In this document: piece after piece, positions 7,951-30,000 of the stretch
Position numbering within the stretch: the stretch's first letter is position 1
Layout of the letters: the number at the start of each line of letters is the position of its first letter
NCBI GenBank assembly: GCA_022841365.1
Contig: JALHRP010000004.1
Location: 1-48,105 of the forward strand
DNA: 48,105 bases
Reading direction: 5' to 3'
Source of the DNA: Chitinophagaceae bacterium
GTDB lineage: Bacteria > Bacteroidota > Bacteroidia > Chitinophagales > Chitinophagaceae
Notes under the pieces: generated by a model
What the model was told of the DNA's origin: nothing
Seen by the model: only the letters and a program-made list of their open reading frames with translations
Databases searched by the model: none
Program-made: the position numbers and the translations under genes

Positions 7951-8013
7951 CTTAGAAGTAATATCAAAGAGTGTTTCGATCTCATCAATTTATTCAGAAA
8001 AAAAATTATTCGT

Positions 8014-8445: not shown

Positions 8446-8464
8446 GAAATACCGCTGCTATGCC

Positions 8465-8472
8465 TATTTTTG
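8465..8472 (+). promoter_or_regulatory. -7 box TATTTTTG ahead of gldE
   Basis: TATTTTTG matches TAnnTTTG. It lies in the 65-bp gap between the ssb stop and the proposed gldE start, so the gld pair may have a promoter separate from mutY-ssb. Confidence 0.45.
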
Positions 8473-8510
8473 TCCGGTAAGCAGTTCATTGTTCATTTAA
8501 TCTCGATGCT

Positions 8511-9857
8511 TTGGATTATCACCCGATCAGTTTTTCATTTTTACTTTCCATTAAACCTGTATTGCTGGCCATCAACAGTCAGGGGCTTACCCTGATGGTG
8601 ATTTTCTTTTTAGTGTTGTTGTTTTTTTCCTTTATTGTGAGTGGAGCAGAAGTTGCATTTTTTTCGTTGCGGTACAAAGATCTCAATATGATCAAAACCA
8701 GACCGGAACCTGCAGCCAGGCGCATTGTAAATCTGCTGGAAGAACCAAAAGTATTGCTGGCAAGTTTGCTTTGTGCCAACATCGTTTTTAATCTCGGTAT
8801 TATTTTTCTTACCAACTATTTAATTGATGAGGCATTAAGTTTACGTCATAACTTATTCTGGGTTGAGTTGATTTTAAAGGCGGCTGCCATTACTTCATTA
8901 ATCCTGTTGTTTTGTGAAATACTGCCTAAGGTATGGGCATCTCAGAACAATGTTTTTTTTGCCTACTTCGCCAGTTGGTGGATTGACTCGATTGTTTATC
9001 CCATTTTTAAATCAACCGGCAGCTGGCTTGCAGGGTATACAGACAATATTGAAAAACGACTTGCAAAATATCAAACAGCAGCAACCAAATCTGAAGAGCT
9101 GGATTATGCCATTGATCTTATGAGCGAAGAAGAAGCGACAGATGAAGAAAAACAGATTTTGAAAGGCATTCAGAATTTCAGCAACATTACGGTTAAACAA
9201 ATTATGCGTTCAAGGCTGGATGTAAGCGGTATTGAATTTAATGCTTCATTCGAAAGCGTTGTTGCACGCATACAGGAGCTGCATTACAGCCGTTTGCCGG
9301 TATATAAAAATAATCTGGATGAGGTAGTGGGCATATTGCAGACAAAAGATGTGCTTCCGCATTTGAATGATGCAGATAGTTTTCACTGGCAGCAGTTAAT
9401 ACGTACGCCGTTTTTTGTTCCGGAGCAAAAATTAATTGATGATCTGTTGAAAGAGTTTCAGCATAAGCGAATTCATATTGCTGTGGTAGTAGATGAGTTT
9501 GGCGGAACAAGCGGCATTGTAACCATGGAAGATATTGTGGAAGAAATTATCGGAGAAATTAAGGATGAGTTTGATGATGAAGAAACCATCAATAAAAAAA
9601 TTGATGAACGTAATTATATTTTCGAAGGCAAAACCATGATTCATGATCTGTGCCGCACAATGAACCTCCCGCCGGATACGTTTGATGAAGTGCGTGGAGA
9701 AAGCGAATCACTTGCAGGGCTTTTACTTGAACTGGCAGAACGGCTGCCAAGGGTAAATGATGCCATTGAAACAGGCGATTTTTTGTTTACAGTGCTGGAG
9801 GTGAGCCGTAACCGTATTGAAAAAGTAAAGGTCACTATTAAACCAATGAATGATTAA
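8511..9857 (+). CDS. gldE: GldE, CNNM/CorC-type membrane protein of gliding motility
   Basis: GldE is a CNNM/CorC relative that stabilises or supports GldD in Bacteroidota gliding and type IX secretion. In this 448-residue protein a DUF21 (CNNM) transmembrane domain covers about residues 25-190 (IFFLVLLFFSFIVSGAEVAFFSL and later helices). Two CBS domains follow (about 215-335: VKQIMRSRLDVSG ... YSRLPVYK ... HIAVVVDEFGGTSGIVTMEDIVEEIIGEI), then a CorC_HlyC domain to the end. The start is uncertain. TTG 8511 gives MDYHPISF, which fits relatives; an ATG at 8506 is out of frame, and ATG 8595 would cut into the first helix. The 3' end overlaps gldD by 8 bp, so translation is probably coupled. Confidence 0.92.
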   Translation: MDYHPISFSFLLSIKPVLLAINSQGLTLMVIFFLVLLFFSFIVSGAEVAFFSLRYKDLNMIKTRPEPAARRIVNLLEEPKVLLASLLCANIVFNLGIIFLTNYLIDEALSLRHNLFWVELILKAAAITSLILLFCEILPKVWASQNNVFFAYFASWWIDSIVYPIFKSTGSWLAGYTDNIEKRLAKYQTAATKSEELDYAIDLMSEEEATDEEKQILKGIQNFSNITVKQIMRSRLDVSGIEFNASFESVVARIQELHYSRLPVYKNNLDEVVGILQTKDVLPHLNDADSFHWQQLIRTPFFVPEQKLIDDLLKEFQHKRIHIAVVVDEFGGTSGIVTMEDIVEEIIGEIKDEFDDEETINKKIDERNYIFEGKTMIHDLCRTMNLPPDTFDEVRGESESLAGLLLELAERLPRVNDAIETGDFLFTVLEVSRNRIEKVKVTIKPMND

Positions 9858-10479
9858 AATGAAACAGTTGCAAGTGTGTACTTTGTCTATTGTACTTCGT
9901 TCTTTTTATATACTCGTCCTGTTTAACTTTTTTGTATCCTGCAACTCCGATCCACGTCCGAGACCAAAAGGATATTTTCAAATTGATTTTCCTGAAAAAA
10001 AATATGTGCTTTTTGATGAGCCGGGTTATCCTTACACGTTTGAATATCCTGCTTATGGTGCAGTGATCAAAGACAGTACGTTTTTTGATCAGCAGCCCGA
10101 AAATCCATACTGGGTAAACCTTGATTTTCCAACTATGGGCGGACGCATGTATATCAGTTACAAAACAGTGGGCAACAAAAATCTGTTCAGTAAATTGGTA
10201 GAAGATGCGTTTAAAATGACCAGCAAGCACAGCCTCAAAGCAACCTCTATTGATGAAATTCCGGTAAAAGGCGGCCCGGGTGTAAACGGATTTGTGTTTG
10301 ATGTAGGAGGTAATGCTGCAACCGGCAAACAGTTTTTTGTAACAGACAGCAGCAAACATTTTTTAAGAGGCGCATTGTATTTTGATGCTACACCAAATTA
10401 CGATTCCATTAAACCTGTTGAGCAGTTTTTGTATAAAGACATGCAGCACCTGATACAAACATTGAAGTGGCGGAATTAA
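9850..10479 (+). CDS. gldD: GldD gliding-motility lipoprotein
   Basis: GldD is an essential Bacteroidota gliding/type IX secretion component, always found next to GldE. The 209-residue protein has a lipoprotein signal ending in FNFFVSC (Cys31) and then PRPRPKGYFQIDFPEKKY, the hallmark start of the mature GldD domain. The fold around EYPAYG, NPYWVNLDFPTMGGRMYISYK and the C-terminal RGALYFDATPNYDSIKPV also fits the family. The ATG at 9850 overlaps the gldE stop; ATG 9859 is an alternative. Its 3' end overlaps the convergent lipoprotein gene by 4 bp, so no separate terminator is present. Confidence 0.94.
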   Translation: MIKMKQLQVCTLSIVLRSFYILVLFNFFVSCNSDPRPRPKGYFQIDFPEKKYVLFDEPGYPYTFEYPAYGAVIKDSTFFDQQPENPYWVNLDFPTMGGRMYISYKTVGNKNLFSKLVEDAFKMTSKHSLKATSIDEIPVKGGPGVNGFVFDVGGNAATGKQFFVTDSSKHFLRGALYFDATPNYDSIKPVEQFLYKDMQHLIQTLKWRN

Positions 10480-11165
10480 TACCGTAGTTCAAATTTATTT
10501 GCAGATGCATTGGATGAAAACTTCACAGAGTCCAGAATAATATCTGACTGACCGGGAGCAAACGTTTTTCTCAACGTAAATTTTGTAAATACATCTGCCG
10601 CTGTGGCAATAGTAATTGTGGTATCTCCTGCTCTTGCGGATCGGCCAAGTATCGCTGATACAGAAAAATTCGATGAAAAGCTGTGATCCAGTGATAGTGT
10701 TGAAAATGCTGATTGTTGTACATTTTTTAAAGTAACGGATGCACTGGTTTTTTTGTATAATGGATAGGCCAGGTTTTGGAATTTCGCCACATCGTAATCA
10801 TAAAACGATAGCATCGAAAATTTTGAATTGGTACTTACACCCAGGGCATCTCCAAATCCATCCGGGACATCAATATACACTCCCAGGTATTGTGCATCAA
10901 AGCTTGCGGGGTTTAGTTCAGTTTTAATTTCAAAACTGCCATCTCTGTTGGTTTTAACTGTTGCAATCTGTTTGTTGTTGCAGAAAATGCAGGAACTTTT
11001 TTGATAGAGCTTTGCATGCACTTTTATATTGTTGCATCCATTGTTATTGGCCGCTTCAAATACACGGCCTTTGATGGTTACGGTTTCGCAGTTTCCTTCG
11101 CATCTGTACTTTTTACAGGAAAGAAATAATAAACAAAAGGGCAGAAGCAGGTGCATCATTTTCAT
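10476..11165 (-). CDS. Uncharacterised lipoprotein with carboxypeptidase-regulatory-like fold
   Basis: The function is not recognised. The 229-residue protein has a lipoprotein signal with lipobox LLFLSC (Cys17), followed by a Cys-rich N-terminus (CKKYRCEGNCET and CIFCNNKQ). The segment TVTIKGRVFEAANNNGCNNIKVHAKL ... TVKTNRDGSFEIKTEL is typical of carboxypeptidase-regulatory-like/CNA-B-type beta sandwiches. The remainder is beta-rich and ends in KFELRY. It probably sits in a cell-envelope membrane facing the periplasm. The gene converges with gldD and overlaps it by 4 bp. Nothing in its position ties it to gliding beyond adjacency. Confidence 0.75.
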   Translation of the reverse strand: MKMMHLLLPFCLLFLSCKKYRCEGNCETVTIKGRVFEAANNNGCNNIKVHAKLYQKSSCIFCNNKQIATVKTNRDGSFEIKTELNPASFDAQYLGVYIDVPDGFGDALGVSTNSKFSMLSFYDYDVAKFQNLAYPLYKKTSASVTLKNVQQSAFSTLSLDHSFSSNFSVSAILGRSARAGDTTITIATAADVFTKFTLRKTFAPGQSDIILDSVKFSSNASANKFELRY

Positions 11166-11251
11166 GGTTTAAAACTAATCAATATCCTGTAAGAACCTGT
11201 GCTCAACAGCCTTCTTTTTATACTTTGCTAAAGGAATAACCGCTATGGACT

Positions 11252-11259
11252 TATCTTTG
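11252..11259 (+). promoter_or_regulatory. -7 box TATCTTTG for the DUF3109-lutB-deacetylase run
   Basis: TATCTTTG matches TAnnTTTG and ends only 4 nt before the ATG at 11264. It probably drives the closely spaced genes to 14535. Confidence 0.62.
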
Positions 11260-11263
11260 CGAC

Positions 11264-11860
11264 ATGATTGTAATTGACAATATCTATATCAGCGACGAAG
11301 TGGTAGAGGAGCAGTTTGTATGTGATTTGCATAAATGCAAAGGAGGTTGCTGTATTGATGGTGATGCCGGTGCCCCACTTACAAATGAAGAGCTTGAGGA
11401 AGTGAATGCTGCAACAGAACATGTAAAGCATTTGTTGAATGATGAAGCAGTACAGATCATTGAACAGGAAGGCAAGTATGTGTACGATCGTGAATTTGGA
11501 TGGGTAACACCCACTATGCGGAACGGGATGTGTGTGTATGGGTTAGTTGATGAAAACGGTATTGTTAAATGTTCTTTTGAACAGGTATATAATGAAGGAA
11601 AGATTAAATGGAAGAAACCGATCTCCTGTCATCTCTATCCCATCAAAATCAGCAAAAGCAAAAATACAGATCAGGAATATGTGAATTATGAACCGAGAGA
11701 CCCCATGTGTAATCCCGGTTGTGCATTGGGTCAAAAACTGAAAGTACCTGCCTTTGTATTTTTAAAAGAAGCTGTGATAAGAAAATATGGCGAAGATTTT
11801 TATGAAGTGCTGACTCAGATTGCTGATCAGTATTACGATTCAAAGGAAGCAAACAAGTAA
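11264..11860 (+). CDS. DUF3109 family Cys-rich protein
   Basis: This 198-residue protein of unknown function carries conserved cysteines suited to binding an Fe-S cluster or zinc: CDLHKCKGGCCIDGDAG (residues 20-36), NGMCVYG, IVKCSFE, PISCHLYPI and DPMCNPGCALG. The CxxxCxGxCC opening resembles the YkgJ/UPF0153 zinc- or iron-chelating family. No signal peptide is present, so it is cytoplasmic. It is separated from lutB by 9 bp and shares its strand and promoter. I assign the family with confidence but not an activity. Confidence 0.85.
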   Translation: MIVIDNIYISDEVVEEQFVCDLHKCKGGCCIDGDAGAPLTNEELEEVNAATEHVKHLLNDEAVQIIEQEGKYVYDREFGWVTPTMRNGMCVYGLVDENGIVKCSFEQVYNEGKIKWKKPISCHLYPIKISKSKNTDQEYVNYEPRDPMCNPGCALGQKLKVPAFVFLKEAVIRKYGEDFYEVLTQIADQYYDSKEANK

Positions 11861-11869
11861 CTTTAGTAC

Positions 11870-13246
11870 ATGAGCCAAACCGCTGATAAGTTTATTGCCA
11901 AGAGTACAATCAAGTCTGCCGATCTGGATCACAGACGTACCATCAATTTTAATATTGGTAAGTACAATGCAAAAGTTCCTGAAGGGAAACAGCAGTTTAC
12001 ACAATTATTAACTGCACGTGAACGGGCAAAGAATGTAAAGTGGCGTGCGTTGGAAACACTCGATCAGCAACTGGAAGAATTTGAATTGCAGTTCACCCGC
12101 AGAGGCGGTAAAGTGATCTGGGCCGAAACCGCAAAACAGGCTTGTGATGAAATTCTGAAAATATGTGAAGCAAAAAATTGCAAAACATTGGTGAAGAGTA
12201 AGAGTATGGTTACAGAAGAAATTCACCTGAACGAATTCATGGAGAAGCACCACATTGAAAGTGTGGAAACAGATCTGGGAGAATATATTCAGCAACTCGA
12301 TGGTGAAGCACCTTATCATATTGTTACACCAGCCATGCACAAGAGCAAAGAAGATGTAGCTAAACTCTTTGCAGAAAAATTAGGAACAGATCCCAAAGCA
12401 ACACCTGAGCAGTTAACATTGGTTGCACGAAAAATTCTGCGGGAAAAATATGTGCAGGCCGAAGTTGGTGTAACAGGTGCTAATTTTATTTTAGCCGATG
12501 TAGGTGCTGTTGCAGTAACAGAAAATGAAGGCAACGCCAGATTGAGCTGTGCATTTCCTAAAACACATATTGTAATTGTTGGCATTGAAAAAGTTTTGCC
12601 AAGTATGCATGATCTTGGTTTGTTCTGGCCATTGCTTGCAACCTATGGCACAGGCCAACAGGTAACCGTATACAACAGTATTGTGCTGGGCCCAAAGCAA
12701 CCGGGTGAAAAAGACGGACCTGAAGAAATGATTGTGATCCTTTTGGATAATGGCCGAACCAATGTGTTAAAAAATCCTGCTACAAGAGAAAGTTTATATT
12801 GTATCCGTTGCGGTGCCTGTTTAAATGCATGTCCTGTTTATAAAAATATTGGCGGACATAGTTATGGTGCTACCTATAGTGGTCCCATTGGAAAAGTGAT
12901 TACACCACATCTGAATCAGTTAGATGAATACAAACATTTAAGTTATGCATCATCGCTTTGTGGTAATTGTACAGAAGTTTGTCCGGTGAGAATTAATTTG
13001 CACGAACTGTTATTAGAAAACCGTCATGAAGCTGTTGATCAGGGTTATTCATCTTTTGGCGAACGCATGGCATGGAAGGTTTGGAAAAGAGCTTCATTGA
13101 GCCGCAAACTCATGAATATGGGCAGCAGCAAAATTAAAAGCTGGATGATCAACCGGTTTGTAAAAGCGTGGACCAAACATCATGGCGAGATGCAGTTTCC
13201 TGAAAAAAGTTTTAATCAGCTTTGGCAGGAGCGTAACGGCAAGTAA
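11870..13246 (+). CDS. lutB: LutB-type iron-sulfur protein (lactate utilisation family)
   Basis: This 458-residue LUD-domain and ferredoxin-domain protein belongs to the LutB/LldF family, the electron-transfer subunit of the LutABC L-lactate dehydrogenase. The N-terminal LUD domain (about 60-300) contains VGVTGANFILADVGAVAVTENEGNARL. The two [4Fe-4S] motifs are CIRCGACLNACP (Cys311, 314, 317, 321) and CGNCTEVCP (Cys364, 367, 371). The C-terminus carries the LutB_C region ending GEMQFPEKSFNQLWQER. The partner lutA, a cysteine-rich CCG-domain protein, is not seen in this window. A lutC-like gene lies 25 kb away at 38709. The start is 9 bp after the DUF3109 stop. Confidence 0.9.
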   Translation: MSQTADKFIAKSTIKSADLDHRRTINFNIGKYNAKVPEGKQQFTQLLTARERAKNVKWRALETLDQQLEEFELQFTRRGGKVIWAETAKQACDEILKICEAKNCKTLVKSKSMVTEEIHLNEFMEKHHIESVETDLGEYIQQLDGEAPYHIVTPAMHKSKEDVAKLFAEKLGTDPKATPEQLTLVARKILREKYVQAEVGVTGANFILADVGAVAVTENEGNARLSCAFPKTHIVIVGIEKVLPSMHDLGLFWPLLATYGTGQQVTVYNSIVLGPKQPGEKDGPEEMIVILLDNGRTNVLKNPATRESLYCIRCGACLNACPVYKNIGGHSYGATYSGPIGKVITPHLNQLDEYKHLSYASSLCGNCTEVCPVRINLHELLLENRHEAVDQGYSSFGERMAWKVWKRASLSRKLMNMGSSKIKSWMINRFVKAWTKHHGEMQFPEKSFNQLWQERNGK

Positions 13247-13254
13247 TTTAAAGC

Positions 13255-14535
13255 ATGCTTGTTTACACGGAACATATCACTCCACGTATTGCATACATCC
13301 TGCAGTATTTCAATGAAAAATTATTGATTGATGCGCAGCTTACAGATGATGTGGAACTGTATCGTTCATCAACAGAAGCAAAGATCAATTATTCTACTGA
13401 ACGAATAGATGCTGATGAGCTGTTGATCCACCCTGCAGGTTTATTACATCAGTCTGCAATCAGTAAACAAGCAGTTGAATGTTTTGATTGGAACGGAGTA
13501 AAGGCTTTTTTTAAAACGGATGATGATCTGGGGTTTGATGTATTCTCGGCCGTATTTTATCTTCTTACACGATACGAAGAATACACCGAACATGAACCCG
13601 ATGAATACGGTCGTTACGCACATTGGAACTCATTGGCATGGAAAGAAAGTTTTTTAAACAAACCTTTGATTGATATCTGGCTTTTGAAGTTTAAACAGGT
13701 GCTTACAACAAAGTTCACTTCTATCAAACTGCAAACTACAAACTTTGAATTTCTTCCCACCTACGATATTGATATTGCATGGAGTTATAAGAACAAAGGG
13801 TTTTGGCGGAATATAGCAGCATCTATCCAACATCCGTCAACTATTCCCCAACGGTTGAGCGTTCTGTTCGGAAATAAAAAGGATCCGTATGATGCTTACG
13901 ATTGGTTGCAGCAATTGCATCAACAGCATGCACTACAACACATTTACTTTTTTCTGGTAGCTGAAGAAAACAGCGAGTATGATAAGAATATTTCTCCAAA
14001 GAAAAAGGCGATGTTACAACTGACGAGAGATACTGCAGAGCAGGCCGTCATCGCATTACATCCTTCCGTGCAAACTAATACCGGCAAAGAATTATTGCTG
14101 AAAGAAAAACTTACTCTGCAGCGCATCAGTAACAAAGTGATTACTGCCTCACGTCATCATTACATCAAATTTCATCTGCCTCATTCTTATCGTGAATTAA
14201 TTGCTGCAGGTATTACAGATGATTACAGTATGGGCTATGGCACAGTGAATGGTTTTCGTGCATCCACCTCTCATTCATTTTTGTGGTATGATCTGGAAAA
14301 AGAAGAAATCACTTCATTGCGTATTCATCCTTTTGCATTTATGGAAGCCAACTCGTTTTATGAATTGCATCAGTCTCCCACAGAAGCATTAGAAGAAGCG
14401 AAACAATTAGCAGAAGAAGTAAGAAATGTAAACGGAATTTTTATCAGCATTTTTCACAATCATTTTCTTGGTACTGATACTATGTTCAAAGGATGGAGGG
14501 AAATGTATGAAAATTTAATAGTTGAAGTACGCTAA
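13255..14535 (+). CDS. Polysaccharide deacetylase-like protein
   Basis: The 426-residue protein has an N-terminal domain with the conserved block AVFYLLTRYEEYTEHEPDEYGRY (about 100-123). This is typical of Bacteroidota proteins annotated as polysaccharide deacetylase with an extra N-terminal domain. The barrel-like part begins with FLPTYDIDIAWSYK (about 165-178), the equivalent of the T-F-D-D/D motif 1, and includes ALHPS (motif 2-like) and GYGTVNGFRASTSHSFLWYDL. No signal peptide is visible, so an intracellular or non-classical role is possible. The metal-binding His pair is not certain by eye, and activity is inferred only from the fold. It starts 8 bp after lutB. Confidence 0.72.
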   Translation: MLVYTEHITPRIAYILQYFNEKLLIDAQLTDDVELYRSSTEAKINYSTERIDADELLIHPAGLLHQSAISKQAVECFDWNGVKAFFKTDDDLGFDVFSAVFYLLTRYEEYTEHEPDEYGRYAHWNSLAWKESFLNKPLIDIWLLKFKQVLTTKFTSIKLQTTNFEFLPTYDIDIAWSYKNKGFWRNIAASIQHPSTIPQRLSVLFGNKKDPYDAYDWLQQLHQQHALQHIYFFLVAEENSEYDKNISPKKKAMLQLTRDTAEQAVIALHPSVQTNTGKELLLKEKLTLQRISNKVITASRHHYIKFHLPHSYRELIAAGITDDYSMGYGTVNGFRASTSHSFLWYDLEKEEITSLRIHPFAFMEANSFYELHQSPTEALEEAKQLAEEVRNVNGIFISIFHNHFLGTDTMFKGWREMYENLIVEVR

Positions 14536-20970: not shown

Positions 20971-21000
20971 AAAAAAAAACTCCGCAACAAGTGCGGAGTT
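20971..21000 (-). terminator. Intrinsic terminator of the carB-C transcript
   Basis: A perfect 9-bp stem (AACTCCGCA 20978-20986 with TGCGGAGTT 20992-21000) has a 5-nt loop. On the minus strand it is followed by a run of nine T. It lies 49 bp downstream of the carB-C stop. Confidence 0.9.
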
Positions 21001-21048: not shown

Positions 21049-22242
21049 TTACTTACTCAAATACATACTTCTATCCTTATACAACTGACGGAAGTAAGGA
21101 TCACGCAAATCTTTTATAAAACGGATGGCTTCACCTGTACTTTTCATTTCAGGCCCAAGCTCTTTATTTACATTAGGGAATTTATTAAAGCTGAACACCG
21201 GTTCTTTAATAGCATAACCGGTCAGTTTCTTTTCGTATGTAAAATCAGTGAGTTTCTTTTCACCCAACATCACTTTGGTAGCAATGTTCAGGTAAGGAAT
21301 CTGGTAAGCTTTTGCAATAAACGGTGTAGTGCGTGATGCTCTCGGGTTGGCTTCAATTACATACACTTTCCCATCTTTAATGGCAAACTGAATATTGATA
21401 AGTCCGAGAATGTTGAGTGATTGTGCAATTCGTTTTGCATAATCTTTCATGGTAGTAACAATCAATGGAGTTAAGTTGAACTCAGGTAATACCGCATGGC
21501 TGTCGCCACTGTGAATACCGGCCGGCTCAATATGTTCCATTACACCCATTACATGAAAGTTCTCTCCATCATAAATCGCATCAATCTCAGCTTCCTGACA
21601 ACGATCAAGAAAATGATCAATCAATATTTTATTGCCAGGTAAATGTTTAATTAAACTCAACACACCTTTTTCCAGTTCTTCATCATTCAACACAATCCGC
21701 ATACGCTGCCCACCCAATACATAACTGGGACGAACAAGCACAGGGTAACCAACTTCTTTTGCCACTTCAATGGCTTCATCTGTATTATACGCTGTTCCAT
21801 ATTTGGGGTAAGGGATACCCAGTTCTTTCAGCAAATCACTGAAACGGCCACGGTCTTCGGCAATATCCATACTGTCGAATGAAGAACCGATGATGCGGAT
21901 ACCTTTTTCGTGCAGACGCTTTGCCAGCTTCAGGGCTGTTTGTCCGCCAAGCTGAACTATCACACCATACGGTTTTTCCAGTTCAATAATTTCCCAGAGA
22001 TGTTCCCAATAAACCGGTTCAAAATAAAGCTTATCGGCCATGTCAAAATCGGTACTCACTGTTTCGGGGTTGCAGTTCACCATAATTGCTTCGTAGCCGC
22101 ACTCTTTAATAGCGAGCAGACCGTGAACACAGCAATAATCGAACTCAATACCCTGACCAATACGGTTGGGGCCGCTGCCGAGAACAATGATTTTTTTGCG
22201 TTGAGATGGAATGGATTCGTTGTGGAGGATCGTATTTGCCAT
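21049..22242 (-). CDS. carB: Carbamoyl-phosphate synthase large subunit, C-terminal half (split CarB, carbamate-phosphorylating half)
   Basis: This 397-residue stand-alone protein equals the second half of CarB. It begins in the interdomain linker (NESIPSQRKKIIVLGSGPNRIGQG) and continues through CCVHGLLAIKECGYEAIMVNCNPETVSTD. The second ATP-grasp domain shows RPSYVLGGQRMRIV, HIEPAGIHSGDS and INIQFAIKDGKVYVIEANPRASRT. It ends at about the start of the MGS-like allosteric domain, which is absent; CarB without this domain is, from memory, not rare in Bacteroidota. It normally phosphorylates carbamate to carbamoyl phosphate as one chain with the first half, here encoded 5.2 kb away at 27480-29126. 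It has its own ATG and its own TACCTTTG box 7 nt upstream. The ATP-grasp motifs look intact, so the halves probably assemble as two subunits. Confidence 0.93.
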   Translation of the reverse strand: MANTILHNESIPSQRKKIIVLGSGPNRIGQGIEFDYCCVHGLLAIKECGYEAIMVNCNPETVSTDFDMADKLYFEPVYWEHLWEIIELEKPYGVIVQLGGQTALKLAKRLHEKGIRIIGSSFDSMDIAEDRGRFSDLLKELGIPYPKYGTAYNTDEAIEVAKEVGYPVLVRPSYVLGGQRMRIVLNDEELEKGVLSLIKHLPGNKILIDHFLDRCQEAEIDAIYDGENFHVMGVMEHIEPAGIHSGDSHAVLPEFNLTPLIVTTMKDYAKRIAQSLNILGLINIQFAIKDGKVYVIEANPRASRTTPFIAKAYQIPYLNIATKVMLGEKKLTDFTYEKKLTGYAIKEPVFSFNKFPNVNKELGPEMKSTGEAIRFIKDLRDPYFRQLYKDRSMYLSK

Positions 22243-22249
22243 TGCGCTG

Positions 22250-22257
22250 CAAAGGTA
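22250..22257 (-). promoter_or_regulatory. -7 box TACCTTTG for carB-C
   Basis: Reads TACCTTTG on the minus strand, followed by 7 nt and the ATG. It gives the detached C-half its own promoter, giving a very short leader. No clear -33 TTG is seen. Confidence 0.6.
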
Positions 22258-22329
22258 GGGGTGCAGAAAAAAATCCGGCGTATTTTTTTATCAAAATTTC
22301 AGCAACTTTTCCCCGCTAACAGTCATAAG

Positions 22330-22689
22330 CTAAAAGGGGTTTTCCAGATCGGCTTTTGTGTACAAATGATTCCGGGTTACGAATAACGAATCTGCAGTAC
22401 CGGCAGATTTTACAAAGCTGCTTTTTCCCAGCAAACGCATGAGTAAGGCAATGGGAGTAAGGATAACAAAGAAAATGATGCTGAGCAGGATGCGGCTGTT
22501 GATAAAGCCCAGCACTTTGGCAATCATCATCCAGCTGAGATGAATAAACTCGCCAATGGAACTGATGAGAAAACCAACAAAAGACATACCCACCGGCACC
22601 AGCATCCATTCTTTTCTGAAAAAGAAATAAAGCAGGCCAAAGCCAATGGTAATGACGATAAGAGAGCTATGTTTTTTTTGCCACTTCAT
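22330..22689 (-). CDS. SxtJ-like small membrane protein
   Basis: This 119-residue protein has three or four hydrophobic helices (LIVITIGFGLLYFF; MLVPVGMSFVGFLISSI; a final helix IIFFVILTPIALLMRLLGK about 70-88) and a short hydrophilic tail ending DLENPF. The ILTPIALLMRLLGK motif and the ENPF-type tail match the SxtJ family. That family is named after a gene of unknown role beside the O-carbamoyltransferase sxtI in saxitoxin clusters, and it recurs next to NodU/CmcH-type carbamoyltransferases in unrelated bacteria. Its start abuts the DUF5989 stop with no gap. It is the last gene of the inserted module before carB-C. Confidence 0.8.
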   Translation of the reverse strand: MKWQKKHSSLIVITIGFGLLYFFFRKEWMLVPVGMSFVGFLISSIGEFIHLSWMMIAKVLGFINSRILLSIIFFVILTPIALLMRLLGKSSFVKSAGTADSLFVTRNHLYTKADLENPF

Positions 22690-22842
22690 TTAAAAGAGTG
22701 AATAGATAAATGGTGCAACGGCGCTGCTGCCACCAAAAATTAATAAAACGCCCAATAGTAACATGACAATGATAATGGGAGCCAGCCACCATTTTTTCCG
22801 CACTTTTAAAAAGGCCCACATATCTTTTAAAAATTCGAGCAT
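22690..22842 (-). CDS. DUF5989 (SxtK-like) 50-residue membrane protein
   Basis: From ATG 22842 the protein is 50 residues: a basic/aromatic N-terminus (MLEFLKDMWAFLKVRKKWW), one transmembrane helix (LAPIIIVMLLLGVLLIF) and the ending GSSAVAPFIYSLF. This is the DUF5989 pattern (FL..RKKWWL.PI..., ...APFIY.LF), the family that includes SxtK. A longer upstream frame is out of phase with the SGNH gene it would overlap and was rejected. The start is 4 bp after the SGNH stop and the stop abuts the SxtJ-like start, so all three are probably translated together. Family knowledge suggests it works with the carbamoyltransferase; its biochemical role is unknown. Confidence 0.85.
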   Translation of the reverse strand: MLEFLKDMWAFLKVRKKWWLAPIIIVMLLLGVLLIFGGSSAVAPFIYSLF

Positions 22843-22846
22843 AAAC

Positions 22847-23974
22847 TCAGGGTTGATGTGTTGTATCTGATTGTAAGTAACTGTAAAGATACGTTGCGGC
22901 CAGTTGATTGCCAGCCTCACTCCAATGCGGATCGCAGGGTAAAAAATAATTGTTACCGGGTGCTGATGCAAAAACCGGCAGCAGGTCTACAAATTCAATG
23001 CGGTTTTTTTTGCAAAATGCGTTTAGCTCAGGCGATAATTTATTTTGCTGATCCGTTTTGTAGCGTTTGATTTCAGAAGCCACAGGAATTGTAAACAGGA
23101 TGATGCGTTTATCAGTCGCCGAGTTTTTAATTTGGGTGAGAATAAAACAAAAGCGTTCAAAATCTGCAGCCGAATAATTTACAAAGCCGGAGTAGTCATT
23201 TTTATACAGTTGATGTGCTTTGCGGTTTTGGCGGAAATAATCAACAAGATGAAACCAGAACGTATAAGCTCGTAAAAAACGGGCAACCGTTCCTTTCAGA
23301 CTGTTATGTTTACTAAAATATCCTTCCTTATTAAATGTAGTTTTCTCAAAGGAGCTGTTATAAAACTGCAGTGCATAACCGTTGTTTGATTTTACATAAT
23401 AGGGTTTGTATCGTTTCATTCCGTCGTATAAACCTTTATGAACATCCGGGTCGTTATCAAAAAAATCATTGATAGGTAATAAGCCAATCAGGATGGTTTG
23501 ATGTGCAAAACCGGAAGCCAGCTTTTTATATACCAGATATTCCTGTGTTGTACTGAAATCGGAGCAGCCAAAATTCAAATATTCTTTTCCTGTTTTTTTG
23601 CTGAGCAGGTTTGATAAACGATTGGAGTCTGCAATTCCAAAGCCTTCAATAAATGAATCGCCCAACACAATTACTCCGTTACTGTCTGCAACATGTTGTT
23701 TCCATTCTTTATCACGGGCACCATAACTGTTGATTGAATACTGCACAGAAAAACAGTCACGCTTAAACATAAAATTCTCAGGATAATGCCAGGTGCCCCA
23801 TTCTGGCTTCAGGTCAGCAAACTGATAGGGATAATGTTTTTCTTTCAGGGAAAATGTAAAATGGGGCCTGGTCGCAGGGATATATCCGGTTACAATCATT
23901 AACCAGCAAACCAGTTCTGCCAGTACATAACTGACAAGTGAGATGATGAAATAATAACTGAGTTTGCGTTTCAT
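22847..23974 (-). CDS. Membrane-anchored SGNH/GDSL-fold protein of the carbamoyltransferase module
   Basis: The 375-residue protein has an N-terminal signal anchor (YYFIISLVSYVLAELVCWLMIV, about residues 7-28), so the catalytic domain should lie outside the cytoplasm. SGNH blocks are visible: block I VIVLGDSFIEGFG (about 100-112, nucleophile Ser in GDS), a block III-like position LIGLLPINDFFD, and block V DPHWSEAGNQLA (Asp-Pro-His catalytic pair, about 352-363). The family acts as esterases or O-acyltransferases on glycans and lipids. Spacing is tight: 5 bp after the carbamoyltransferase and 4 bp before DUF5989. Only SGNH blocks are seen, so substrate and reaction are open. A role in modifying the carbamoylated product is inference. 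Confidence 0.82.
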   Translation of the reverse strand: MKRKLSYYFIISLVSYVLAELVCWLMIVTGYIPATRPHFTFSLKEKHYPYQFADLKPEWGTWHYPENFMFKRDCFSVQYSINSYGARDKEWKQHVADSNGVIVLGDSFIEGFGIADSNRLSNLLSKKTGKEYLNFGCSDFSTTQEYLVYKKLASGFAHQTILIGLLPINDFFDNDPDVHKGLYDGMKRYKPYYVKSNNGYALQFYNSSFEKTTFNKEGYFSKHNSLKGTVARFLRAYTFWFHLVDYFRQNRKAHQLYKNDYSGFVNYSAADFERFCFILTQIKNSATDKRIILFTIPVASEIKRYKTDQQNKLSPELNAFCKKNRIEFVDLLPVFASAPGNNYFLPCDPHWSEAGNQLAATYLYSYLQSDTTHQP

Positions 23975-23979
23975 GGTTA

Positions 23980-25842
23980 TTAATCCGTTGTAATTGTTTT
24001 CTTCCAGTCATCTTTCTCTTTCCACAGCGGCTGATCTTTTTTGCTGAACAAAAAATCACCTATCACCAGATAATCCATTTCGGTGCGCATGAAACATTGA
24101 TAGGCTTCCATTGGAGTACAAACAACCGGCTCTCCACGTACATTAAAACTGGTATTGATCAATACGGCACAACCGGTGAGTTGTTTAAATGCAGTGAGCA
24201 GTTCATGAAATGTTTTATTGGTTGATGCATGCACTGTTTGTATACGGGCTGAGTAATCAATATGAGTAATGGCGGGTAATGTACTCCGCTGGAAATACAA
24301 TTTTTCATTCATGGTCAACTGCTGATAGTTTTCCGGCACTTCTTTTTGAATTTCTTTTTTTACCGGTTGCACCAATAACATATAAGGTGATGCTGTTGTT
24401 AACTCAAAATAATCTTGTGCATCTTCAGCTAATACAGCAGGAGCAAAGGGACGAAAGCCTTCACGGTATTTGATTTTGAGGTTGAGTTTCTTTTGCATCT
24501 CGGGGTTACGGGCATCAGCAAGGATGCTGCGGTTACCCAATGCTCTTGGCCCAAACTCCATACGACCCTGAAACCAACCGATGACATTTCCTTCATTGAT
24601 TAATCTTGCAACAACTTCATTCAGCGCATCCCTTTCTTCGTACCGTTTATATTTAGCGTTGAAGTTTTTTGCTGTTGTTACAATCTCTTCATCGGTATAA
24701 GACGGACCGAGATAAGCACCTTTCATTGCATCAGCTTCGGTTGTAACTGTGCGTTCTCTTTCAAAATAAATATGATGGGCTGCTAATGCTGCACCAACAG
24801 CACCACCTGCATCACCACTTGCCGGTTGAATGAATAGTTCATCAAAGATATTTTCGTTCTGCAGTTTGCCATTCGCTACACAATTCAAAGCCACACCACC
24901 CGACAAACAAATGTTTTTAGATCCCGTTAATTCTTTTGCATGATGTGCAAGCTTTATTACAATTTCTTCGGTTACCTGCTGAATGGCGAATGCCAGATTG
25001 CAATGCTGCTGTTGTAATTCATCTTCGGGCAATCGTTTACCAAAACCAAACAGTTGTTTAAAGGCATCGTCTTTCACCATCCGTAGCCCAACTGCATAAT
25101 TGAAATACTTTTGATTTAGTTCAATAGAGCCATCATCAAAAATGTTGACCAGTTTTGTTTTGATGGTTTCAACAAATGCTGCCGTTTGTGTTGATGCAGG
25201 ATTGCCATAAGGAGCAAGCCCCATCAACTTGTATTCACCACTGTTTACTTTAAAGCCGAGATAATAAGTGAAAGCTGAATACAATAACCCAACAGAGTGG
25301 GGGAAGTTGAGCTGCTTCAGTATTTCAATCTGTTTGCCTTTTCCTTTACTGATGGTTGTGGTGGCCCATTCGCCTACACCATCAATGGTCAGGATGGCTG
25401 CTTCTTCAAACGGTGAAGGATAAAAAGCAGAAGCAGCATGACTGAGATGATGTTCAGGGAACAACAGTTTCAGTTTCTTTTTATCATAGAGTTGAATTTT
25501 TTTCAACTCATCCCGAATCATTTTTTTCAGGAATAATTTTTCATTCAACCAAATGGGCATGGCCAACAAAAAAGAAGCAAAGCCTTTTGGTGCAAATGCA
25601 TAATAGGTTTCGAGTAATCGTTCAAACTTCAATAACGGTTTATCGTAAAACACAACTGCTTCCAGTTCATCAATGGTAATACCCGCTTCTTTTAAACAAT
25701 AGCTGATGGCTTTTGATGGAAACCCGGCATCATGTTTCTTTCGGCTGAACCGTTCTTCCTGTGCGGCGGCAAACACTTCGCCATCTTTGATGACGGCTGC
25801 AGCAGAATCATGATAAAAAGCCGAAATGCCGAGGATGTACAT
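23980..25842 (-). CDS. NodU/CmcH/SxtI-family O-carbamoyltransferase
   Basis: This 620-residue enzyme of the carbamoyltransferase (NodU/HypF C-domain) family transfers a carbamoyl group from carbamoyl phosphate to a hydroxyl via a carbamoyl-AMP intermediate. The N-terminal ASKHA-like domain shows MYILGISAFYHDSAAAVI and the metal-binding HHLSHAASAFYPSPF (His131, His135). The domain also contains ILTIDGVGEWATTTI and GEYKLMGLAPYG. The C-terminal domain carries GWFQGRMEFGPRALGNRSILADAR (about 430-453) and LINTSFNVRGEPVVCTPMEAYQCF (about 570-593). All signature motifs look intact. Acceptors in known relatives are Nod factor sugars, antibiotics and saxitoxin; here the acceptor is unknown. It is the centre of the five-gene module between the two halves of carB. 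Confidence 0.93.
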   Translation of the reverse strand: MYILGISAFYHDSAAAVIKDGEVFAAAQEERFSRKKHDAGFPSKAISYCLKEAGITIDELEAVVFYDKPLLKFERLLETYYAFAPKGFASFLLAMPIWLNEKLFLKKMIRDELKKIQLYDKKKLKLLFPEHHLSHAASAFYPSPFEEAAILTIDGVGEWATTTISKGKGKQIEILKQLNFPHSVGLLYSAFTYYLGFKVNSGEYKLMGLAPYGNPASTQTAAFVETIKTKLVNIFDDGSIELNQKYFNYAVGLRMVKDDAFKQLFGFGKRLPEDELQQQHCNLAFAIQQVTEEIVIKLAHHAKELTGSKNICLSGGVALNCVANGKLQNENIFDELFIQPASGDAGGAVGAALAAHHIYFERERTVTTEADAMKGAYLGPSYTDEEIVTTAKNFNAKYKRYEERDALNEVVARLINEGNVIGWFQGRMEFGPRALGNRSILADARNPEMQKKLNLKIKYREGFRPFAPAVLAEDAQDYFELTTASPYMLLVQPVKKEIQKEVPENYQQLTMNEKLYFQRSTLPAITHIDYSARIQTVHASTNKTFHELLTAFKQLTGCAVLINTSFNVRGEPVVCTPMEAYQCFMRTEMDYLVIGDFLFSKKDQPLWKEKDDWKKTITTD

Positions 25843-25867
25843 GGGTGCAAAATAAATGATTTGATAG

Positions 25868-25936
25868 ATACACGGATGACACAGATTTAGGCGGATGATT
25901 ACGGATTTAATCTGTGCTCATCTGAGTTATCTGTGG
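25868..25936. repeat. Degenerate ATCTGTG/ATCCGTG-type intergenic repeat, copy C
   Basis: The 167-bp gap between the SGNH gene and the carbamoyltransferase holds alternating pieces of CACGGATGACACAGATTT and CGGATTTAATCTGTGCTCATCTG. The second shares 20 of 23 bases with repeat B at 27254. Similar GTGTCATCCGTG/AATCTGTGC strings are dispersed intergenic repeats in many bacteria (from memory). No gene is seen here. Confidence 0.55.
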
Positions 25937-26005
25937 CAAAATTTGTTTTTAAAGAGAATCCGTTGTCTGATCAAACAATGAACAAGAAGACTGTACACTT
26001 AAAAT

Positions 26006-26061
26006 GGACTTAATCTGTACTTATCTGTTTCATCCCTGTCATCAGTGACTCTATTTCTTCA
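26006..26061. repeat. Dispersed intergenic repeat, copy A (forms the SGNH gene 3' end)
   Basis: AATCTGTACTTATCTGTTT, then CATCCC, TG and TCATCAGTGACTCTATTTC match repeat B (27255-27339) over both flanks in the same orientation. B carries 30 bases where A has TG. Copy A encodes the last 17 or so codons of the SGNH gene, suggesting the gene's tail was replaced or extended by the repeat. Confidence 0.7.
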
Positions 26062-27116
26062 CTCAAAATCTCCGCTACCTTAGCGGCTCCCTGTTTATTA
26101 AAATGTATAAAGTCGTAATAGTAAGCTGTATTCTTTGGCATCAGTTTCGCCAGATCAATGACTGTTGCCTGTTTGCTGAACGAACGGACAACATTATTGT
26201 ATTCTTCCAATACCTGCTCCTGCAACAAATTATTTTTACCTGGATTGCTTTCATGAAATTTCAAATCCATTTGCACAGCAGTTGTACTGTCAGTAAAAGA
26301 ACCGTACAACGATGGTTGCGTTAACAGGATCGGTTGTATGCCATTCGCTTTACAAACTGTAATGATTTCCTGCAATCTTGTTTGATAACCTATGAGATAA
26401 GGTTTTTGTTTAGTTACAACTTCCTGCATGTAAGCAGCAGAGAAACTTGTGTCGGGCAACTGTTTAAAATCAATTTCCTTATGAATCAATCCTTTTTTAT
26501 ACGCTAAACGGATGGCATAGAATTGAAAAATAGTAGAACCGATTTCTGTTTTATTCAGCAGCGATTTGAAAAATTGTTTGAAACTGTTGTATTGAATTCT
26601 GTTATCATTCATCAAATCAAAACGCTCAGGTTGTTTTGTTTCCACATCATTTACACCTGTTAGCAGCAACACGTATTTTGGTTTGAGTTTGATGATATAT
26701 TCTTTCAGCAAATGCAAATGGCCAAAGGTTGAATGACCGTCAAGACCTGCATTGTTGATCCATAAATTTGGAACAGAATCTTTCAATTCCTCTCCCAGCA
26801 GAAAAGGCCAGGTTGTGCTGTCGCTTAAAAATTTACATTCAGTGGTACTGCCGCCAATGGCAATGATGGAGTTGAGTTTGGAAATACTGTCTGTTGGTTC
26901 CGGTCCACGAAAACCCAATGAATTTCTTGAATAGAAAATCTGTTTGTCTAACTGACCGATCCATTTATTTTGAAAGACTGTTTTTTGATTGGCAGGTAAA
27001 ATCAGTTTTCCCTGTTTGGTGTAAGTGGAAAAAGGGTTGTAGATCCGCAGCACAATTTCGCAGAGCAGCAATGCAACAGTTAAACCAAACAACAATGCTT
27101 TGAGATTTTTGATCAT
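26010..27116 (-). CDS. SGNH/GDSL-fold protein, first gene of the carbamoyltransferase module
   Basis: From ATG 27116 the protein has 368 residues; a longer frame from GTG 27188 would translate a palindrome and is rejected. It has an N-terminal membrane anchor (ALLFGLTVALLLCEIVLRIY, about residues 7-26) followed by SGNH blocks. Block I is IIAIGGSTTEC (about 85-95, Gly-Gly-Ser-Thr variant), block III is LLTGVNDVE (about 155-163), and block V is YDFIHFNKQGAAKVAEIL (Asp and His, about 333-350). It resembles the other module SGNH protein in layout but is not a close duplicate. Its C-terminal residues SLMTGMKQISTD come from dispersed repeat A. It is 167 bp upstream of the carbamoyltransferase on the same strand. 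Substrate unknown; an envelope-facing hydrolase or transferase is the best guess. Confidence 0.78.
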   Translation of the reverse strand: MIKNLKALLFGLTVALLLCEIVLRIYNPFSTYTKQGKLILPANQKTVFQNKWIGQLDKQIFYSRNSLGFRGPEPTDSISKLNSIIAIGGSTTECKFLSDSTTWPFLLGEELKDSVPNLWINNAGLDGHSTFGHLHLLKEYIIKLKPKYVLLLTGVNDVETKQPERFDLMNDNRIQYNSFKQFFKSLLNKTEIGSTIFQFYAIRLAYKKGLIHKEIDFKQLPDTSFSAAYMQEVVTKQKPYLIGYQTRLQEIITVCKANGIQPILLTQPSLYGSFTDSTTAVQMDLKFHESNPGKNNLLQEQVLEEYNNVVRSFSKQATVIDLAKLMPKNTAYYYDFIHFNKQGAAKVAEILSEEIESLMTGMKQISTD

Positions 27117-27152
27117 CGGGATGTAAGATAAAAACTGTTTGTGAGAATGTGG

Positions 27153-27226
27153 TGTCTGTTCATCCGACGAAGGAGGATGACTGTACACCGTTTAAGATGT
27201 GCAGTCACCTTTCAGGTGAACAGACA
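27153..27226. repeat. 74-bp two-armed imperfect palindrome upstream of the SGNH gene
   Basis: Outer arms TGTCTGTTCA (27153-27162) and TGAACAGACA (27217-27226) pair perfectly over 10 bp. Inner arms TGACTGTACA (27178-27187) and TGTGCAGTCA (27198-27207) pair over 10 bp with one G-T. Between them lie small CCT-TTC-AGG and TCC...GGA hairpins. The whole folds into a long rod or cruciform about 37 bp before the SGNH start codon. The gap 27117-27479 holds no gene: it contains this palindrome, repeat B, the carB-N terminator and repeat copy 6. Confidence 0.75.
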
Positions 27227-27254
27227 TCTATAAAACATTTGAGCAGATAAAAAC

Positions 27255-27339
27255 GGATTTGATCTGTGCTTATCTGTTTTATCCCCGCCTGAATGGCTTT
27301 AGTCGGGCAGGAGCGTCATCAGCGACTCTATTTTCTTCA
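27255..27339. repeat. Dispersed intergenic repeat, copy B (interrupted by palindrome)
   Basis: GGATTTGATCTGTGCTTATC, then TGTTTTATCCC, followed after an insertion by TCATCAGCGACTCTATTTTC. It matches copy A at 26006-26061 on both sides in the same orientation. Together A and B flank the first SGNH gene as direct repeats. Confidence 0.75.
27284..27311. repeat. CCCGCCTG...CGGGCAGG palindromic element inserted in repeat B
   Basis: The 28-bp element has arms CCCGCCTG (27284-27291) and CGGGCAGG (27304-27311) around AATGGCTTTAGT. The arms pair with one mismatch and one wobble. It accounts exactly for the 28-bp length difference between repeats A and B. The same two arms, in reverse, make the in-frame insertion in alaS at 45188-45208. 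Confidence 0.75.
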
Positions 27340-27346
27340 TCAATAA

Positions 27347-27375
27347 AAAAGCAGCGAATCATCTCCGCTGCTTTT
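27347..27375 (-). terminator. Intrinsic terminator after carB-N
   Basis: A stem AAAAGCAGCG / CGCTGCTTTT (27347-27356 and 27366-27375) with a 9-nt loop is followed on the minus strand by TTTTTTATTG. It would end the carB-N transcript before the module, separating the two. Confidence 0.8.
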
Positions 27376-27443
27376 GAAGTTCATGTTATATTCTTTGTTG
27401 AAATGGAAGTTTCAACGGAAGTTAAGAAATCCTGAAGTACCGT

Positions 27444-27477
27444 CCCTCTCTACTGGAGAGGGAATGAGGGAGAGGCT
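27444..27477. repeat. GCCTC-hairpin palindromic repeat, copy 6, at the carB-N end
   Basis: CCCTCTC (27444-27450), loop TACTG, GAGAGGG (27456-27462) and tail AATGAGGGAGAGGCT match copy 5 in inverted orientation, 32 of 34. It ends 2 bp before the carB-N stop codon complement at 27480, that is, at the point where CarB is broken. Confidence 0.85.
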
Positions 27478-27479
27478 TC

Positions 27480-29126
27480 TTACTCAAACGTACTATAGAA
27501 ATAAGGCGTCTTTGCCTCAAACTCGGCACTGCAGGTATCTACCATTTTATACACTCTGGTAATGCCCCATGCTTTTCGTTTTTCATACAATGCATCTTCA
27601 CTTGCATCTTCTTTCATAATGCGGCAAATCTGTTCATCGCTAAAGCCCATGCGTTTTGCTTCCGTCAGTAATTCTTTCGGGAGCGTTTGCATATCATGCT
27701 TTGCCAGTTCTTTTTCAACGTTTACTATATCCTGTATCTGGTAAATAAACCAACGATCAATCTTGGTTGCTTCAACAATCGTCTTTACACTTACACCCGC
27801 CATCAACGCATCTTTAATACGGAAGATGCGGTCCCATTTCGGCACCTTAATATATTCAATCAGCTCTTCCGCATGTTTTACACTTTGTCCGTAGTATCCT
27901 AAACCAACGGCGTTGTTTTCTAAACTCTGACAAGCCTTCTGCACCGCTTCTGTAAAGCTTCGTCCTATACCCATCACCTCACCAACACTTTTCATTTGTA
28001 AACCTAAACGATCATCGGCACCTTTGAACTTATCAAAGTTCCAACGTGGCATTTTTACAATTACATAATCCAATGCCGGTTCAAAGTATGCAGAGGTGGT
28101 TTGTGTGATCTGATTTTTCAATTCATCCAAAGTATAACCAATGGCCAGCTTGGCTGCAATTTTTGCAATGGGATAACCGGTTGCTTTACTTGCCAATGCA
28201 GATGAGCGGCTTACACGTGGATTGATTTCAACCGAAATAATTTCTTCGTTCTCCGGGTTCATGGCAAACTGCACGTTACAACCACCGGCGAAGTTGCCGA
28301 GGCTCCGCATCATTTTAATGGCCATGTTCCGCATGTTCTGGAATGCTGTATCGCTTAATGTCATAGCCGGAGCAACGGTAATACTGTCGCCTGTATGCAC
28401 ACCCATGGGATCAAAATTTTCTACCGTACAAATGATCACCACATTATCATTCTTATCACGCAGCAACTCTAATTCAAATTCTTTCCAGCCCAGCAATGCT
28501 TTCTCCACCAGCACCTCGTGCATGGGACTTGCTTTTAATCCTCTTTCCAATGCAGCATCCAGTTCATCTTTGTGAAACACAATACTGCCGCCCGTTCCAC
28601 CTAAAGTAAACGACGGACGGATCACCAACGGAATACCGATTTGCTGTGCAAATTCTTTTCCTTCCAATAAGGAGTTGGCAACACGGCTCGGTGCAACACC
28701 AATACCAATATCAATCATCAGCTGGCGGAATTTTTCTCTGTCTTCTGCCGTATCAATCGCTTTTACATCCACCCCAATCATCCGCACATTAAATTTCTCC
28801 CACACAGCCAGTTCATCCGCTTCTTTACAAAGGTTCAGGGCTGTTTGTCCGCCCATGGTGGGCAACACTGCATCTATCTGCGGATTTTCTTCCAGAATCT
28901 GTTCAATACTTTCAATGGTGAGTGGCAGCAGATACACACGGTCGGCCATCATGGGGTCGGTCATGATGGTAGCAGGATTGCTGTTGATGAGAATTACTTC
29001 AATCCCTTCTTCACGTAAGCTGCGTGCAGCCTGCGAACCGGAATAATCAAACTCACAGGCCTGGCCAATTACAATGGGGCCGCTGCCTACAATGAGAACA
29101 CTCTTGATGGAACTGTCTTTTGGCAT
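27480..29126 (-). CDS. carB: Carbamoyl-phosphate synthase large subunit, N-terminal half (split CarB, carboxyphosphate half)
   Basis: This 548-residue protein equals the first half of CarB, which makes carboxyphosphate and carbamate from bicarbonate, ATP and ammonia delivered by CarA. It shows [45 protein letters not shown], the ATP-grasp [38 protein letters not shown] and [23 protein letters not shown]. The oligomerisation region follows, ending in [29 protein letters not shown]. In ordinary CarB this is followed by a linker and the second half; here it stops at TAA beside palindromic copy 6. The continuation is found at 22242 as a separate gene. The -7 box TACTTTTG lies 16 nt before the ATG. 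No carA is in the window. Confidence 0.94.
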
Positions 29127-29142: not shown

Positions 29143-29150
29143 CAAAAGTA
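29143..29150 (-). promoter_or_regulatory. -7 box TACTTTTG for carB-N
   Basis: Reads TACTTTTG on the minus strand, a full TAnnTTTG match, 16 nt before the ATG at 29126. Confidence 0.6.
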
Positions 29151-29331: not shown

Positions 29332-30000
29332 ATGCAGCTTTTTATAAAATTTGGGAAAGAAGAGCATCTAAAGCAACTTCAAAAAGATGGCAGGCTTTAT
29401 TGCAAATCGGTTCTGGAGTTTGCAAAACTAGAAAACGATGAAGCAAGGGGCGATCAGTTTGAGAATGTTATCAGATTAGAACTATTAAACGATAAAATAA
29501 TATGGTTAAAAGAAAAGGATAATGAAAGCGCAGATTGGAAAAAGTTGAATGTAAATTTTGCCCAATTTAAATTATCCGATGAAGAATATAAAGGCAACCT
29601 ATTTTGTATGAGCAGTTTTTCTTTGGACTTAAAAACAGATGAGGTTGAGATTATTTTAGATACGAGGTTCTTAGAGAAATTCGGGACTCATTATCTTCTA
29701 GTTTTAAATCAGCCAGAATTTTTTAAAAGAATAGATAAAGCTTTGAGTGATAAGAATATTGATTATCGAAAAGGAAATGTAGAGTATAAGGATTTGAAAA
29801 ACCATTCAGGAGCTAAAACAATCTTTGATAAAGACATATTGTTCTCGTGGCAAAATGAATACAGAATTTTCATAGAAACAGATTCAACGGAATTTCAAAT
29901 ATTTAACATTGGCAATATTGAAGATATAACTGAGGTAAACCAATTAAGTGAATCCACAACTTTTAGGATAAGAAAGGGAAAAAGTTTGAACGAAATATAG
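29332..30000 (+). CDS. Uncharacterised protein, A+T-rich accessory gene
   Basis: The 222-residue protein has no signal peptide or membrane segment. Visible features are an N-terminal MQLFIKFGKEEHLKQLQKDG, LYCKSVLEFAKLENDEARGDQFEN, FCMSSFSL and a C-terminal FSWQNEYRIFIETDS. The last motif (W-x-x-E-x-R) and the overall plan resemble DUF2971-like and related uncharacterised proteins often found in variable genome islands; this is a weak resemblance. Its codons are visibly richer in A and T than the neighbours, with many AAA, GAA and ATA. It is a lone plus-strand gene between carB-N and an M23 peptidase, consistent with recent acquisition. A role in stress or phage defence is possible but not supported by any motif. 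Confidence 0.7.
   Translation: MQLFIKFGKEEHLKQLQKDGRLYCKSVLEFAKLENDEARGDQFENVIRLELLNDKIIWLKEKDNESADWKKLNVNFAQFKLSDEEYKGNLFCMSSFSLDLKTDEVEIILDTRFLEKFGTHYLLVLNQPEFFKRIDKALSDKNIDYRKGNVEYKDLKNHSGAKTIFDKDILFSWQNEYRIFIETDSTEFQIFNIGNIEDITEVNQLSESTTFRIRKGKSLNEI

Follow-up and report, generated by a model that had tools for sequence, protein, structure and literature searches.

Split carB genes in Lacibacter and other Chitinophagaceae, and the variable O-carbamoyltransferase cassette between the Lacibacter halves

CarB is a textbook channelling enzyme in which unstable carbamate passes through a tunnel between the two halves of the protein, and in methanogens, which are archaea, carB occurs as two genes, carB1 and carB2. 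A known arrangement of this kind is that of Aquifex aeolicus, where the carbamate-forming half (CPS.A), the carbamate-phosphorylating half (CPS.B) and the glutaminase (GLN) are reported to be products of separate genes that assemble and work as one complex (Ahuja et al. 2001, cited in PMC6022934). The DNA analysed here, referred to as the window, is a 48,105-nucleotide stretch (positions 1 to 48,105 of contig JALHRP010000004.1, assembly GCA_022841365.1) from a genome of Lacibacter (Chitinophagaceae; G000), and its carB is likewise divided into two genes. The locus resembles that of A. aeolicus in having both synthase halves on separate genes together with a separate glutaminase subunit, CarA (PMC6022934), and differs from it in belonging to another phylum, in lacking the MGS domain and in having close relatives, at 81-88% identity, that keep a fused gene. 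The two carB genes of the window are:

27480 to 29126, minus strand: CarB-N (CPS.A; carbamate-forming half and oligomerisation domain), intact, a 548-residue open reading frame (ORF) with an ATG and its own stop
21049 to 22242, minus strand: CarB-C (CPS.B; carbamate-phosphorylating half, no MGS domain), intact, a 397-residue ORF with an ATG and its own stop

An earlier reading made from the letters and ORFs of this DNA without database searches (the sequence-only reading) had described a 548-residue CarB-N and a 397-residue CarB-C as separate genes with their own starts and stops, lying 5.2 kb apart on one strand and together making one CarB core, and each of these points was borne out. The break falls in the interdomain linker, and consecutive positions of the CarB model PRK05294 (1058 positions) are matched by the two proteins, 1-542 by CarB-N residues 1-548 and 543-923 by CarB-C residues 7-386. 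Against E. coli CarB, residues 1-548 are covered by CarB-N and 557-921 by CarB-C. CPS.A and CPS.B are carried on separate complete genes and form two chains, where E. coli-type CarB (TIGR01369) is one chain with a C-terminal MGS domain. The CarB-C match stops at position 923 of 1058 in PRK05294 and at 931 of 1052 in TIGR01369, indicating that the allosteric MGS domain is missing. The fused carB genes fetched from Chitinophagaceae are equally short (937-954 residues), the MGS domain being missing by length, and its absence is therefore not tied to the split.

The search for relatives covered 59 genomes, 14 of them Lacibacter. CarB-N was present in 13 of the 14 Lacibacter genomes, always as an open frame of 560-597 residues, and was not found in the G009 assembly, for which completeness is given as 100; CarB-C was present in all 14, interrupted by a contig end in G004. 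A frameshift, sequencing error or assembly artefact was ruled out by the same split in 13/13 Lacibacter genomes in which CarB-N was found, one of these assemblies (G003) being a single contig.

Sixteen active-site positions, eight per half and bearing what we take to be their E. coli residue names, were checked in alignments to E. coli CarB. All 16 were invariant in 23/23 split and 34/34 fused rows, so that both ATP-grasp active sites are intact at the positions checked. In six Lacibacter comparisons the ratio of nonsynonymous to synonymous substitution rates (dN/dS) ranged over 0.022-0.038 in CarB-N and 0.015-0.052 in CarB-C; purifying selection on each is strong. CarA was found in all 14 Lacibacter genomes (two matches in G000, one in each other), located either on a contig without the carB halves or at a distance of over 370 kb from them; in the draft genomes, links across contig ends are invisible. 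The gene fission is real and clean and its product probably functional; CarB-N and CarB-C most likely come together in trans with CarA, as the Aquifex subunits are reported to do, and the split enzyme is expected to be catalytically active.

To place the split in its family, 294 Chitinophagaceae genomes were searched, of which 278 matched, and the state of carB was read for the 149 best-scoring: 79 were split, 69 fused and one undetermined. Among 80 named loci, four of them from Lacibacter, 58 were split, 21 fused and one interrupted by a contig end. The C half lay inside the locus in six of the 58 split loci and was absent from the other 52, with about 10 kb on both sides in 25 cases and shorter flanks in 27; some partner halves are more than 1 Mb apart (G013, G031). 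Halves only 51-134 bp apart, without a cassette between them, occur in three lineages (L100 with L124; G024; and Lacibacter G006). In the split members examined the break is at the same linker, N halves (546-560 residues, the longest in lineage G024) ending at or just after the sequence Y(S/T)(S/T)FE and C halves beginning a few residues before an NES..KKIIVLG stretch; in fused relatives approximately 2 to 15 residues, counted by eye, separate the end of the N part from the NES motif. The fused CarB proteins of Ferruginibacter, Niastella, Terrimonas and Chitinophaga have halves 81-88% identical to those of the window, the same linker region and no MGS domain by length, but are encoded by one gene of about 940-954 codons. 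Such split and fused relatives are natural matched pairs with which the contribution of covalent linkage could be tested. In a sample of the phylum (247 genomes, 215 matched), nearly all carB genes outside Chitinophagaceae were fused among the matches listed. No report of split carB in Lacibacter or Chitinophagaceae was found in the open-licence literature, among the matches listed, and we regard the apparently repeated splitting of the gene within one family as more interesting than the gene arrangement described below.

Changes between the split and fused states were counted on three trees. A FastTree tree of 113 N halves required seven changes, at least three of them forced by starred branches; a second tree, built from the 57 genomes that have both halves, required five, at least three forced; and a more careful tree of 56 of these (LG+G4), leaving out a long-branched fused copy on G000 contig C74 (considered below), required five, at least four forced by starred branches. 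A single clade of all 23 split rows was rejected by the approximately unbiased (AU) test (p = 1.2e-39), as was a single split clade without the trio near Ferruginibacter (p = 9.5e-6; this test was chosen after the tree had been seen, the first label set beforehand). Gain and loss of the split state are not distinguished by these trees. Repeated fission is preferred to re-fusion because the outgroup, drawn from other families, has fused genes and because separated halves would be hard to rejoin, so that splits at the linker most likely arose several times in Chitinophagaceae.

Between the two halves in the window lie exactly the five genes that the sequence-only reading had assigned to a carbamoyltransferase module:

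26010 to 27188, minus strand: SGNH/GDSL hydrolase-like protein, 392 residues, GTG start (PF13472, 51.8 bits)
23980 to 25842, minus strand: NodU/CmcH-type O-carbamoyltransferase, 620 residues (PF02543, PF16861)
22847 to 23974, minus strand: SGNH/GDSL, AlgX-like protein, 375 residues (domain match)
22690 to 22842, minus strand: DUF5989 small protein, 50 residues (PF19451, 88 bits)
22330 to 22689, minus strand: SxtJ-like protein, 119 residues (PF19588, 36 bits)

The 620-residue protein has the domain composition of the NodU/CmcH family, Carbam_trans_N and Carbam_trans_C (320 and 248 bits) extending over its whole length. It is similar to GdmN over nearly its whole length (E 4.7e-95) and related to TobZ, for which a structure has been solved, over residues 126-601, and is predicted to transfer a carbamoyl group from carbamoyl phosphate to a hydroxyl. 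It shares both Pfam domains with NodU, GdmN, TobZ and the novobiocin carbamoyltransferase and differs from these in its setting among DUF5989, SxtJ and SGNH genes; the genes between the carB halves showed no sign of an antibiotic or Nod-factor pathway. The cassette probably modifies a surface glycan or a metabolite. Open-licence papers on the combination of DUF5989, SxtJ and a carbamoyltransferase all dealt, by title and abstract, with saxitoxin gene sets and made no mention of DUF5989. A homologue of the 392-residue SGNH protein adjoins carB-N in all seven other Lacibacter genomes with a NodU-type gene between the halves, and the 375-residue SGNH gene had no relative in other Lacibacter carB loci (tblastn at 1e-5, loci from L013 on).

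The NodU-type gene is bracketed by the carB halves in 8 of the 14 Lacibacter genomes (G000, G001, G002, G003, G007, G010, G011 and G012), and its orthologue (at least 78% identity) adjoins a carB half in 11 of the 14. The content of the cassette is variable in the genus. G008 has SGNH, DUF5989 and a 517-residue ORF between the halves and no NodU-type gene there, its nearest NodU relative (66%) being on a different contig, and in G006 just 134 bp, holding a promoter box and what looks by eye like a hairpin but no cassette, separate the halves. The halves are on two contigs in G004, each adjoining part of the cassette, whilst in G013 the cassette stays with CarB-N, 1.3 Mb from CarB-C. G005 has 30 kb between the halves, with the two genes on opposite strands and none of the cassette genes next to either. 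In G009, contig C112 (L163, L062) carries a rearrangement that places NodU, DUF5989, SxtJ and CarB-C beside homologues of the genes at window positions 3552-14535. Three opposite-strand ORFs lie in the gap in G003 and G007, G012 has a 382-residue ORF with a weak SGNH match below the Pfam cut-off, and proteins of 517-533 residues between the halves in G012, G001 and G008 had no Pfam match.

Outside Lacibacter no cassette gene was detected with the window proteins (tblastn at 1e-5) in 76 carB loci, many with flanks shorter than 10 kb, or in eight C-half loci (L143-L150). Similarly, a NodU match at 1e-60 was present in 15 genomes outside Lacibacter and in no case lay within 10 kb of carB, the nearest being approximately 29 kb away (G055) in these draft assemblies, where links across contig ends are invisible. 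Linkage conserved across lineages, which would mark a cluster of donor-making and donor-using genes, was thus not observed. The sequence-only reading had raised the question of whether the module always lies between split halves in the family: the split itself is frequent, and the module is found there in just over half of the Lacibacter genomes and was seen in none of the loci searched outside the genus.

Sites bearing on transcription of the locus were as follows:

29143 to 29150, minus strand: TAnnTTTG promoter-like box (TACTTTTG) upstream of carB-N (motif match)
27347 to 27375, minus strand: terminator-like hairpin after carB-N, 12 pairs with a T-rich tail
22250 to 22257, minus strand: TAnnTTTG promoter-like box (TACCTTTG) upstream of carB-C (motif match)
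20978 to 21000, minus strand: terminator-like hairpin after carB-C

TAnnTTTG, which we take to be the promoter element at -7 in Bacteroidetes, shows no enrichment across the window (44 seen against 58 expected), and boxes stand just before both ATGs, in agreement with the proposal that each half has its own. The carB-C box starts 15 nt upstream of the ATG in all 13 Lacibacter carB-C genes examined, including that of the cassette-free G006, the fourteenth (G004), interrupted at a contig end, being outside the count. Across split C genes a box was present within 60 nt in 18/25 (Lacibacter 13/13, others 5/12), where mononucleotide shuffles gave 0.47 on average, near relatives among these genes not being independent, and for CarB-N it was present within 60 nt upstream in 60/69 split and 21/40 fused loci. 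The two hairpins draw their support from position, terminator-like sites in the region numbering 9 where 7.8 were expected from shuffles. The carB-C box and the hairpin after carB-N speak against co-transcription of the halves with the cassette and favour independent units, carB-N and carB-C presumably being transcribed separately.

The sequence-only reading had named a full-length carB elsewhere in the genome as a finding that would refute it. One is present in G000, a fused gene of 937 residues on contig C74 (L043, 3488-6301) with all 16 checked active-site positions intact, but it appears to be a recent foreign copy. The same gene is in G012 (contig C3, L046, 9386-12199), the two genomes being 98% identical over 15 kb here with a synonymous divergence (dS) of 0.009, whereas dS between their split genes is approximately 0.42 and other pieces compared are 77-95% identical. 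It was not found in the other 12 of the 14 Lacibacter genomes and groups, on a long branch, with other families of the order. Its neighbours are genes for a biotin carrier, a DUF6671 protein, a phosphoesterase and an amidohydrolase, together with a 452-residue putative biotin carboxylase (PF02786 match). C74 as a simple contaminant was rejected, because G012 has a 98% identical counterpart on a contig of 451 kb, and the part of that contig at 300-310 kb matches 14/14 Lacibacter genomes; C74 is nevertheless far closer to G012 than other pieces are, and G000 is possibly contaminated by it. From these comparisons the fused carB is judged to be a recent arrival from outside in G012 and most likely so in G000. 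G000 also has a second carA match (5141-5512) at one end of contig C113, which is 5.5 kb long, with 70% DNA identity to the main carA over approximately 1 kb, which is probably contamination.

Two further arrangements touch on the split genes. In L117, from another split lineage, the carB halves are close together and two small ORFs (3835-4552) separate them, so that Lacibacter is not alone in having genes in this gap; they resemble what we take to be a toxin-antitoxin pair, the second ORF being PIN-domain-like. In Limnovirga soli (L070 and L072; L180 and L181 in G106) CarB-N alone is duplicated on two contigs, the copies having 4 differences in 547 residues and 97% identity over 1,968 bases.

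Taken together, clean fission, assembly in trans, repeated splits and an incidental, plastic cassette form an account that we consider quite probable. carB would have undergone fission in the flexible linker that joins its two homologous halves, and CPS.A, synthesising carbamate, and CPS.B, phosphorylating it, would join CarA, encoded elsewhere, in trans to give a functional carbamoyl phosphate synthase. In the lineage of Lacibacter the halves would have stayed close as separately transcribed genes, and the cassette of O-carbamoyltransferase, SGNH, SxtJ and DUF5989 genes would have come to lie in the gap after the fission, drawing carbamoyl phosphate from the common pool with its position between the halves incidental. 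Several points weigh against this account. The tree could equally have come from a single early fission and several later re-fusions; the small genomes (2.4 Mb) of G006 and G005 may have lost the cassette secondarily, and G008 keeps part of one; the presence of the bracket in eight genomes, with all genes and both halves on one strand, may reflect a weak benefit of closeness; and the split pair of G000 and G012 could be redundant beside the fused gene, although selection on the pair is strong. That the pair is a relic and the C74 carB does the work in this strain is scarcely credible: the fused gene looks intact, but dN/dS of the halves between G000 and G012, which both hold it, is 0.024 and 0.015, and the recency of the copy and its absence from the 12 other assemblies mean that it does not make a relic of the split pair. 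We think it unlikely that the Lacibacter split was caused by the cassette itself, through insertion into the linker of a carB still fused, with start, stop and promoter gained later. The insertion would lie exactly in the variable linker, and L117 has other ORFs at the same place, but most split loci have unlinked halves with no cassette gene near, closely spaced cassette-free halves occur in three lineages, and the promoter box is present in cassette-free G006, which may itself have lost a cassette.

The product of CarB is the donor used by NodU-type enzymes, and the sequence-only reading had attached meaning to a donor-supplying enzyme that brackets its consumer. A unit of supply and use, in which the halves and cassette on one strand feed the labile donor straight to the O-carbamoyltransferase, gains from the frequency of the bracket and of NodU-carB adjacency within Lacibacter, yet is highly improbable. 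Cassette genes were found beside carB only in that genus, with the bracket in 8 of 14 genomes and no NodU-type gene near carB in the 15 other genomes; within it G008 has a cassette without NodU, linkage is broken in G005, G009 and G013, and the gaps of G003 and G007 contain opposite-strand ORFs. A promoter box of its own precedes carB-C, a terminator-like site stands after CarB-N, and CarA, also needed, is encoded elsewhere. The carB-C box, present also without a cassette, the variable content and the unlinked halves elsewhere fit an incidental cassette better than a selected donor-consumer unit. The bracket is best read as a genus-level arrangement of a cassette between independent genes, not kept throughout Lacibacter and not seen beyond it in the loci and genomes examined; striking as it is, it fails on comparison and serves as a warning against reading function into neighbours. 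An unlikely further reading is that fission is favoured in Chitinophagaceae because, the MGS domain being missing, separate promoters set the amounts of CPS.A and CPS.B independently, in Lacibacter also to the benefit of the neighbouring O-carbamoyltransferase; if true, the supply of carbamoyl phosphate would be under an additional, new level of control, with the extra CarB-N of Limnovirga soli a second instance of altered dosage.

An ORF of 222 residues adjoining carB-N in the window (29332-30000) had no Pfam or NCBIfam match. A different break in carB was observed in other Bacteroidota families (L175, L176, L177, L178 and L179), where the match to the N part ends near residue 474-483; the C half was absent from the 9-10 kb fetched for L175, L176, L177 and L179. 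In L178 (G328) the gene at 3657-5129 is followed by one at 5266-7149 that matches from residue 476, inside the oligomerisation region, and one in-frame TGA was noted.

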